From an uncultured Bacteroidota bacterium (GTDB lineage Bacteria > Bacteroidota > Bacteroidia > UKL13-3): a stretch of 64,000 nucleotides of DNA. The stretch spans positions 1-64,000 of the forward strand of contig CAISCU010000043.1 of assembly GCA_903883965.1 (NCBI GenBank), written 5' to 3'. Position 1 is the stretch's first letter. Each line of letters opens with the position of its first letter. Positions 17,683 through 21,799 of the stretch are shown here, in pieces. The notes beneath the pieces are model-generated. The model ran no database searches. It had not been told where the DNA came from and saw only the letters and a list, made by a program, of their open reading frames with translations. The position numbers and the translations under genes are program-made.

Positions 17683-20349
17683 ATGAAAAAAGATTATACA
17701 TTAAAGCTTTCAGGATTGGAGCCACTAGTGGTTACTCCAGAATCAAACTTTGTGAATGTGGGCGAAAGAACCAATGTAACAGGGTCGGCAAAATTTCTTC
17801 GTCTCATCAAAGAAGGGAATTTTGACGAAGCATTGGCTGTAGCCAGAGAACAGGTAGAAGGAGGAGCCCAAATCATTGATGTAAACATGGATGAGGGCAT
17901 GCTAGATGGCGTAGAAGCGATGACCCGATTTTTAAACTTGGTAGCCGCAGAACCAGATATAGCAAGGGTTCCTGTAATGATTGATTCTTCTAAATGGCCA
18001 ATTATTGAAGCCGGTTTAAAAGTGGTTCAAGGAAAATGTGTGGTAAATTCTATTTCGCTCAAAGCAGGTGAAGAAGAGTTTATTTATCAAGCCAAATTAA
18101 TTAAGCGCTATGGCGCTGCGGTTATTGTAATGGCTTTTGATGAGCAAGGTCAGGCTGATAATTATGAAAGAAGGATTGAAATATGTAACCGCGCTTACCG
18201 CATTTTAGTTGATAAAGTTGGTTTTTTTCCAGGCGATATCATTTTTGATCCGAATATTTTTCCAGTTGCCACAGGAATGGAAGAACACAACAACAATGCT
18301 GTTGATTTTTTCAATGCCACCAAATGGATCAGAGAAAACCTAGAAGGAGCACATGTAAGTGGTGGCGTATCTAATGTCTCTTTCTCTTTTAGAGGAAACA
18401 ATTCGGTAAGAGAGGCCATGCATGCGGCATTTTTATACCATGCCATTCAACATGGCATGGACATGGGTATTGTAAACCCAAGTATGCTAGAAGTGTATGA
18501 TGACATTCCCAAAGATTTATTGGAACACGTTGAAGATGTATTGCTCAACAGAAGACCCGATGCCACCGAAAGATTACTCAGCTTTGCCGAAACTGTAAAA
18601 CAAAAAGGCAAACAAGAAAAAGTAGATGAAGCCTGGAGAAGCAAAACTGTAGAAGATAGATTGAGTTATGCCTTGGTAAAAGGTATCGTTGATTACATTG
18701 ATGCAGATACAGAAGAAGCCAGACAACAGTTTAGCAGGCCACTTGAAGTAATTGAGGGACCATTGATGGCTGGTATGAATGTGGTTGGCGATTTATTTGG
18801 TTCGGGTAAAATGTTTCTACCACAAGTAGTTAAAAGTGCAAGGGTGATGAAAAAAGCGGTAGCTTACCTGATGCCTTTTATGGAAGAAGAGAAGCTAAAA
18901 AGTGGTCAAACCAGCAATTCACAAGGTAAAATTTTAATGGCAACCGTAAAGGGCGATGTGCATGATATTGGCAAAAACATTGTTGGGGTGGTGCTTGCCT
19001 GCAATAATTTTGACATCATAGATATGGGTGTAATGGTTCCAACAGAAAAAATCATTGCCAGAGCCATCGAAGAAAACGTAGATGTTATTGGCCTAAGTGG
19101 TTTAATTACACCTAGCCTTGACGAAATGGTAGGGGTTGCCAAAGAAATGGAAAGAGCGGGCTTAAAAACACCCTTATTGATAGGTGGTGCCACAACCAGT
19201 AGGGTTCATACGGCTGTTAAAATTGATCCGCATTACAGCGGATCTGTGGTGCATGTGGTGGATGCCAGTAAAAGTGTGCCCGTAGTACAAAAATTAATTG
19301 GAAAAGAGGCTGGCCCTTTGTTTCATCAAAACATCAAAGAAGATTACGCAAAGTACCGCGAAGAATACGCAAATAGACAAAGAGAAAAGAAATATTTAAG
19401 TATTGAACAAGCACGAAAATTTGATGTAAAAGTGAACGTACAAAATATTGTAAAACCTAGCTTTACTGGCACAAGGGTGTTTGAAAACATTAACCTCGAA
19501 ACACTCAAAGCTTACATTGATTGGACCCCGTTTTTTCAAACATGGGAACTGGCTGGTAGGTACCCTCAAATATTGAACGATGAAGTGGTGGGCAAAGAGG
19601 CAACTAAATTGTTTTCGGATGCCAATGAAATGCTCAATCAAATTATTACAGAAAAAACACTTCAAGCAAATGCAGTAGTTGGATTTTGGCCAGCAAACAG
19701 GGTGGGTGATGATGTAAAATTAACGGTTTCTGAAAATACCACCATGCTGCATTTTTTAAGACAACAAAACGAAAAAGCAAGTGGTCAAACATACAGCTGC
19801 CTTGCAGACTTTGTTGCTGAAGACGGTCAAAACATTACAGACTATATGGGTGGTTTTGCGGTAACTGCAGGTATTGGTATTGAAAAACTCATTGCTGCAT
19901 TTGAAAAAGACCATGACGACTACCACAGCATTATGGTGAAAGCCATTGCTGATAGGTTAGCGGAAGCACTTGCTGAATACATGCACGAATTGGTGAGAAC
20001 CCAATTGTGGCCTTATGCTCCAGAAGAAAGTTTAAGTAAAGCAGATTTAATCAAAGAACAATACCAAGGTATCAGACCTGCACCCGGTTATCCGGCTTGC
20101 CCAGATCATACCGAAAAAACAACTTTGTTTAATTTGTTAGATGCAGAAAATACAATTGGCCTGAAATTAACCGAAAGTTTTGCCATGTATCCAACAGCTG
20201 CCGTTTGCGGGTATTATTTTTCGCATCCAGAAGCCAAATATTTTGGATTGGGTAAAATTCAAAAAGACCAAGTATTGGATTATGCACAAAGAAAAGGTTT
20301 GAGCGTAGAAGAGGCAGAAAAATGGCTTTCACCAAATTTGGCTTATTGA
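17683..20349 (+). CDS. metH: Methionine synthase, C-terminal part (folate, cobalamin and activation domains)
   Basis: An 888-residue protein carrying the remaining modules of MetH: a methyltetrahydrofolate-binding barrel starting at [11 protein letters not shown], a cobalamin-binding cap and Rossmann domain with DVHDIGKN (the His that ligates cobalt at about 427) plus [11 protein letters not shown] and GGATTS, and the SAM-dependent reactivation domain with [15 protein letters not shown]. It transfers the methyl group from folate via cobalamin to homocysteine bound on the partner protein. The normal single-chain enzyme is about 1,230 residues; the two genes add up to 1,225. Cotranscribed with the first part. 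Confidence 0.95.
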
Positions 20350-20366
20350 TAATCCATATTTAAAAC

Positions 20367-20396
20367 TTTGTTTTTTAATAGAATCAACTACTTTTG
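20367..20396 (+). promoter_or_regulatory. metK: Promoter of metK (TTTG-N18-TACTTTTG)
   Basis: TTTG at 20367-20370 and TACTTTTG at 20389-20396 with 18 bp between them match the Bacteroidota housekeeping promoter. The predicted transcript starts near 20400, exactly where the closing helix of the leader RNA begins. Confidence 0.75.
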
Positions 20397-20399
20397 CAC

Positions 20400-20523
20400 T
20401 GCATTCAGAATTCCCGAAATGGAATGCCAACCGAGAAAGAACACCACGGTGGTAAAACAATGCGGACTGCGAGTCAAAATGTTCAAAACCCTTTGACCAA
20501 GGTTTGTGCGGGTATTCAATGCA
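20400..20523 (+). promoter_or_regulatory. Structured leader RNA of metK, candidate SAM-responsive element of unclear class
   Basis: The 5' end TGCATT-GAAT-CCC (20400-20415, two-base bulge) can pair with GGG-ATTC-AATGCA (20510-20523), closing ~94 nt. Inside are ATTCC/GGAAT (20410-20425), GAACA/TGTTC (20439-20484) enclosing ACCA-CGG-TGGT and GACT-GCG-AGTC hairpins, and AAAcCCTT/AAGGTTT (20486-20505). GCATTC (20401-20406) can instead pair with GAATGC (20422-20427), which excludes the closing helix. The canonical S-box core seen before metH is not recognisable, so class and ligand are open. Confidence 0.6.
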
Positions 20524-20545
20524 CTAAATAGAAATAATTAAACAT

Positions 20546-21799
20546 ATGCCTTATTTATTCACTTCAGAGTCGGTTAGTGAAGGACACCCCGACAAAGTTG
20601 CGGATCAGATTTCTGATGCGCTTATCGACAACTTTTTAGCTTTTGATCCAGATTCAAAAGTTGCATGTGAAACCCTCGTTACTACCGGACAGGTAATTTT
20701 GGCCGGTGAAGTAAAATCTAAAGCTTATTTAGATGTGCAAGAAATTGCCAGGGGTGTAATTAGAAAAATTGGTTATACCAAAAGTGAGTACATGTTTGAA
20801 GCAAACTCATGTGGTATTTTATCTGCAATTCATGAGCAATCAGCAGACATTAACCAAGGTGTAGAGCGTAAGAAAAAACAAGACCAAGGTGCTGGTGACC
20901 AAGGTATGATGTTTGGTTATGCTACCAATGAAACGGAAGATTACATGCCGCTTGCTTTAGATTTGGCTCATAAAATTTTGATTGAATTGGCTGCTCTTAG
21001 AAGAGAAAACAAACAAATCAAATATTTAAGACCAGATGCCAAAAGCCAAGTTACATTGGAATACAGCGACGACAATGTGCCGGTAAGAATTGATTCAATT
21101 GTGGTTTCAACACAACACGATGATTTTGATACAGAGCCTAAAATGTTGGCTAAAATTAAAACCGATATTGTTAAAATTTTAATTCCAAGAGTAAAGGCAA
21201 AATACAAAAAGTTTGCGCATTTGTTCAACGATAAAATCAATTACCACATTAACCCAACTGGTAAATTTGTAATTGGTGGACCACATGGTGATACTGGTTT
21301 AACGGGCAGAAAAATCATTGTAGATACTTACGGTGGAAAAGGTGCTCACGGTGGTGGTGCATTCTCAGGAAAAGACCCTTCTAAAGTAGACCGCTCTGCA
21401 GCTTATGCAACCAGACATATTGCTAAAAATTTAGTAGCTGCTGGCTTGTGTAAAGAGGTATTGGTTCAGGTGAGTTACGCCATTGGTGTTAAAGATCCAA
21501 TGGGTATTTTCATTGACACTTATGGCACATCTAAAGTAAAAATGAGTGATGGAGAAATTGCCAAAATTGTAGGCAAAATATTTGACATGACTCCTTATGG
21601 AATTGAAAATCGTTTAAAACTCCGCAATCCAATTTACAGCGAAACTGCTGCATACGGACACATGGGAAGAAAGAACGAAATCAAAACCATCAAGTTCAAA
21701 GGCCCAGATGGAAAAGAAATCAGCAAAAAAGTTGAATTGTTTACTTGGGAAAAACTAGACTATGTAGACAAAGTAAAGAAAGCTTTTAAACTGAAATAG
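20546..21799 (+). CDS. metK: S-adenosylmethionine synthetase
   Basis: A 417-residue MetK, making S-adenosylmethionine from methionine and ATP with release of phosphate and pyrophosphate. The N-terminal [17 protein letters not shown], the [12 protein letters not shown] loop, [13 protein letters not shown] and [16 protein letters not shown] motifs are complete. A short lysine-rich C-terminal extension follows (about 20 residues longer than many homologues). It sits directly after metH and behind a structured leader, so regeneration of methionine and its use are controlled from one block. A strong terminator follows. Confidence 0.97.

Follow-up and report, generated by a model that had tools for sequence, protein, structure and literature searches.

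A SAM-I/IV riboswitch before metK in an uncultured Bacteroidota bacterium, with a probable P1-competing helix ahead of the start codon

What kind of RNA precedes metK in this uncultured Bacteroidota bacterium, and how might it act on the gene? In the window, i.e., the whole stretch of 64,000 nucleotides analyzed here, a structured leader fills the gap between metH (end at 20349) and metK (start at 20546). The controlled gene (20546..21799, + strand) encodes a methionine adenosyltransferase with three S-AdoMet_synt Pfam domains and a TIGR01034 score of 517.5 bits. The first-pass annotation of this DNA regarded the leader as a possibly new or divergent SAM- or methionine-sensing class, and named a screen against known families as the refuting test. 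We found that this screen returns a strong match: region 20396..20491 (+ strand) is recognized as a SAM-I/IV aptamer, RF01725, with 51.2 bits against a gathering score of 41.1 and with model positions 1-99 of 99 covered (cmscan, Rfam 15), RF01725 being the best match within the SAM clan. Given this full-length match above the curated cut-off, the metK leader is a member of the known SAM-I/IV family and not an unassigned class, which removes one candidate for a new class of riboswitches. The view that it differs from its neighbor is, in turn, confirmed. The gene metH is preceded by a SAM-I (S-box) riboswitch (RF00162; 16498..16598, + strand, 68.4 bits) about 4 kb upstream of the metK leader; one genome thus uses, in parallel and 4 kb apart, two SAM sensors that differ in type but belong to one clan. 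The statement that no S-box core is visible before metK is correct as far as a full S-box is concerned, yet the SAM-contact core common to the SAM clan is present. The S-box is not seen there because SAM-I/IV has only the SAM-binding core in common with it.

The window RNA displays the SAM-I/IV hallmarks, a P2 without an internal loop and a P4 that follows P1. In the Rfam alignment, P1 is formed by 20401-20405 with 20459-20463 (also supported by pair counts), P2 by 20410-20414 with 20421-20425 and P4 by 20465-20468 with 20472-20475. The latter two helices are also seen in relatives, among which all five P2 pairs show two-sided changes. P3, which holds the SAM-binding core, comprises 20426-20428 with 20451-20453 and 20431-20433 with 20447-20449. 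A PK-2-type pseudoknot connects GAACA of the P3 loop (20439-20443) with UGUUC of the 3' tail (20480-20484; all elements on the + strand); in a partner-swap test on 73 dissimilar aptamers it gave a z of -6.1, with 0 of 20,000 permutations equally good. In SAM-I, the bases highly conserved around the ligand are A6 U7, G11 A12, C44 A45 C47, G56 U57 G58, and A87 U88 (PMC3764141). According to the base-to-base mapping that we made against this list, their counterparts are 20403-20404, G20408 and A20409, 20428-20431, 20449-20451, and 20460-20461, respectively, with local spacings as in SAM-I and without variation in 45 homologues. Because all SAM-contact nucleotides are present, the sequence points to SAM as the most likely ligand of the metK leader.

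The SAM-I/IV class dates from 2010, when RNAs of the SAM-I/SAM-IV superfamily without the P2 internal loop were described as variants (Weinberg 2010; PMC2864571); its summarized features are an unbroken P2 and a P4, with PK-1 absent (PMC6890682). For one member, env87, crystal structures 4L81 and 4OQU are cited in PMC8525861. The window RNA resembles SAM-I/IV (RF01725) in its unbroken P2, P4 after P1, absence of PK-1 and P3-loop/3'-tail pseudoknot, as well as in the full-length model match, SAM-contact core and metK association, and its aptamer shows no difference from this class. With SAM-I (RF00162) it shares the spacings of the SAM-contact core; however, its P2 is one unbroken 5-bp hairpin with neither kink-turn or internal loop nor P2-loop pseudoknot, and it adds the PK-2-type pseudoknot. 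The core and PK-2 are also found in SAM-IV, which, in contrast, possesses P2a/P2b with PK-1 and lacks P4 (PMC6890682).

The SAM-I/IV family was detected in 11 of the 58 nearest genomes, in 23 of 64 genomes sampled from the order and in 33 of 395 sampled from the class. Scanning 85,000 species genomes with a sequence pattern yielded at least 80 loci, which is not a census, the pattern having been derived from these same SAM-I/IV sequences; the matches listed carry Bacteroidota titles, one only that of an 'uncultured bacterium'. Altogether 42 SAM-I/IV leaders are located before metK; searches of two additional host families contributed none. Covariation, a check suggested in the first-pass annotation for metK upstream regions, supports P1-P4 in the Bacteroidota homologues. 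The 56-sequence model alignment has 94.5% of its cells paired, as opposed to 80.9% after shuffling; two-sided changes occur at 15 of the 20 pairs, and covariation scores 0.450 versus 0.181. A second, partly overlapping set of 93 distinct sequences gives 94.2% and 0.473 versus 0.199. Because both alignments were fitted to the structure, they are biased toward it. When the partners are slid by 1-3 columns, pairing falls to 27-61%.

Upstream of the aptamer, the sequence contains promoter-like elements (20367..20396, + strand), TTTG at 20367-20370 and TAnnTTTG at 20389-20396; this pair, with TAnnTTTG as the -7 element, corresponds to the Bacteroidota promoter consensus. TAnnTTTG lies 4 nt 5' of P1, a spacing kept in 34 of the 42 metK leaders compared; therefore, the RNA most likely starts at the P1 5' strand, and the earlier placement of the transcription start at the 5' end of the leader is plausible. 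No sigma-70 promoter was found in 20300-20620. Folding of 20400-20545 (MFE -33.8 kcal/mol, z -2.23; 5 of 200 shuffles equally good) reproduced the structure of the first-pass annotation, with a closing helix of 14 pairs in three blocks: 20400-20405/20518-20523, 20408-20411/20514-20517 and 20413-20416/20509-20512 (+ strand). We determined that this helix (20400-20416/20509-20523) does not belong to the aptamer and is an alternative helix, anti-P1, which takes the P1 5' strand. Since this strand is common to both, anti-P1 and P1 cannot coexist, and ligand control by mutually exclusive pairing before metK, as originally proposed, is probable, with anti-P1 and aptamer P1 as the competing helices. 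The short hairpin (20401-20406/20422-20427) initially seen as excluding the closing helix does exist as 6-bp complementarity, but it is incompatible with the aptamer helices P1 and P2. Inspection of homologues showed that they do not preserve it, and we rejected it on that ground.

Anti-P1-type helices of the same topology but other sequences, e.g., CGUAUUCCGAA/UUCGGAAUACG in L053, are located approximately 20-36 nt 5' of the start codon in most relatives, with a median distance to AUG of 31 nt; in some metK relatives the helix is short or broken. In the literature searched, outside which lies the structure paper Trausch 2014, we found no description of a P1-competing helix before the start codon. 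In folds of the growing transcript, the P1-P3 aptamer structure was the minimum at 20500, and the alternative led by 12.5 kcal/mol after 20523 had been transcribed. This succession would be expected if SAM capture preceded synthesis of the competitor.

We consider it likely that the metK leader is a SAM-I/IV riboswitch with competing P1 and anti-P1, which turns metK off with SAM by translational feedback control. RNA starting near 20400 would fold first into the aptamer, with P1-P4 and the P3-loop/tail pseudoknot, and could then capture SAM. If SAM is lacking, segment 20509-20523, next to be transcribed, would invade the 5' end of the transcript including G20408 and A20409, and dismantle P1 and P2. 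The invading strand would thereby be held off the start codon, which lies 22 nt further downstream, and translation of metK would proceed; the long closing helix is thus probably the ligand-free "on" shape. With SAM bound, P1 would remain closed and 20509-20523 would be available for pairing close to the start codon, so that translation would drop; the outcome would be feedback control of SAM synthesis. Family membership, the covarying aptamer and the conserved alternative helix are computational results; for the window locus itself, we infer which ligand is bound, that SAM turns the gene off and that control acts on translation rather than transcription, as well as masking of the start region by the freed strand. 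The predicted masking arm at the start codon is weak (-2.3 in the near-identical L015) and, therefore, we base the direction of control on what homologues show and on the feedback logic of SAM synthesis. Bacteroidota depend little on Shine-Dalgarno pairing, and the SAM-I/IV copies offer a testable model for translation switching in this group.

The same aptamer could instead control transcription (Rho-dependent or by pausing) and not access to the start codon, which we find unlikely. It would agree with the start region not being predicted to open or close between the two states at the window locus (openness of 0.61 both free and bound), but we found no intrinsic terminator in 20300-20620. Furthermore, across relatives the freed downstream strand covaries with the bases abutting AUG (own -7.80 versus swapped -4.47; reached in 0 of 20,000 permutations, or 3 of 20,000 for metK only), the effect of relatedness being lowered, not removed, in the swap tests of this analysis. 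In a further reading, which we regard as improbable, the closing helix would be chance complementarity and the aptamer would act via another platform at the window locus. Its duplex (-15.7) is matched by 18 of 5,000 dinucleotide shuffles of the downstream stretch in the window alone, and the genus-mate L011 has the anti-P1 helix in a broken version only, as chance would allow. Yet, pairing of the P1 5' strand with its own downstream stretch is far beyond chance: among 48 dissimilar loci the mean is -9.89 against -6.18 for swapped stretches (sd 0.32), with 0 of 20,000 permutations reaching the own value, and 8 of 20,000 when metK loci alone are considered. Stepping along the aptamer in 29 loci located this signal at the P1 5' end (z of -8.1 and -6.3); near the P1 3' strand and P4 it was -3.2, and elsewhere at most -2.2 in strength. 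That the leader represents a new class of RNA that senses SAM or methionine has hardly any credibility. It is indeed not an S-box whereas its metH neighbor is, but against a new class stand the full-length RF01725 match above the cut-off, the SAM-contact core and the PK-2-type pseudoknot.

Beyond this locus, we somewhat favor the reading that Bacteroidota SAM-I/IV riboswitches constitute a class-wide three-strand translational platform with a regulon of metK, small-protein families and a divergent-MetK-like operon. Three strands would compete in this platform: the extreme 5' end of the transcript (P1), another that lies about 30 nt upstream of AUG, and the AUG-abutting bases. The regulon beyond metK is a more interesting lead than the metK leader itself. 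The unexpected downstream genes direct attention to unknown proteins whose amount probably tracks cellular SAM.

Many Bacteroidota SAM-I/IV copies precede not metK but uncharacterized small-protein genes or the divergent-MetK-like operon. A second riboswitch of the family is encoded in the window's own genome (L056; contig C11, 8077-8170, minus strand, 57.6 bits) and is followed by two small genes of 122 and 83 aa (oriented 1531-2403) with no Pfam match. Three small uncharacterized protein families, of approximately 120, 85, and 136 aa, were distinguished behind Bacteroidota SAM-I/IV (examples in L056, L057, L061, and L094), with at least 27, at least 20 and at least 15 downstream genes; their representatives gave no significant Pfam or NCBIfam match. 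The operon consists of genes for a MoxR-like AAA ATPase, a protein of about 150 aa, a DUF2201/VWA metallopeptidase-like protein and a divergent MetK-like protein, which scores 138.8 bits against a TIGR01034 cut-off of 309.4. It is present in L063 (597-4868), L064 (2328-6578), L065 (515-4976) and L069 (1154-5469; all oriented coordinates), and our literature search found nothing on MoxR, VWA and SAM synthetase together.

In viral contigs, the SAM-I/IV core pattern occurs in 32 stretches (L198-L229), candidate matches that may represent riboswitches or misassigned host DNA. In L112, L123, L130, and L132, the gene immediately downstream of SAM-I/IV is N-formylglutamate-amidohydrolase-like, a surprising target for a SAM-sensing RNA; one member of this cluster has a Pfam FGase match. 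Copies may also be clustered: L033 carries two SAM-I/IV aptamers in tandem before metK, while L070 encodes three such riboswitches within 1.2 kb, each with its own small gene behind it.
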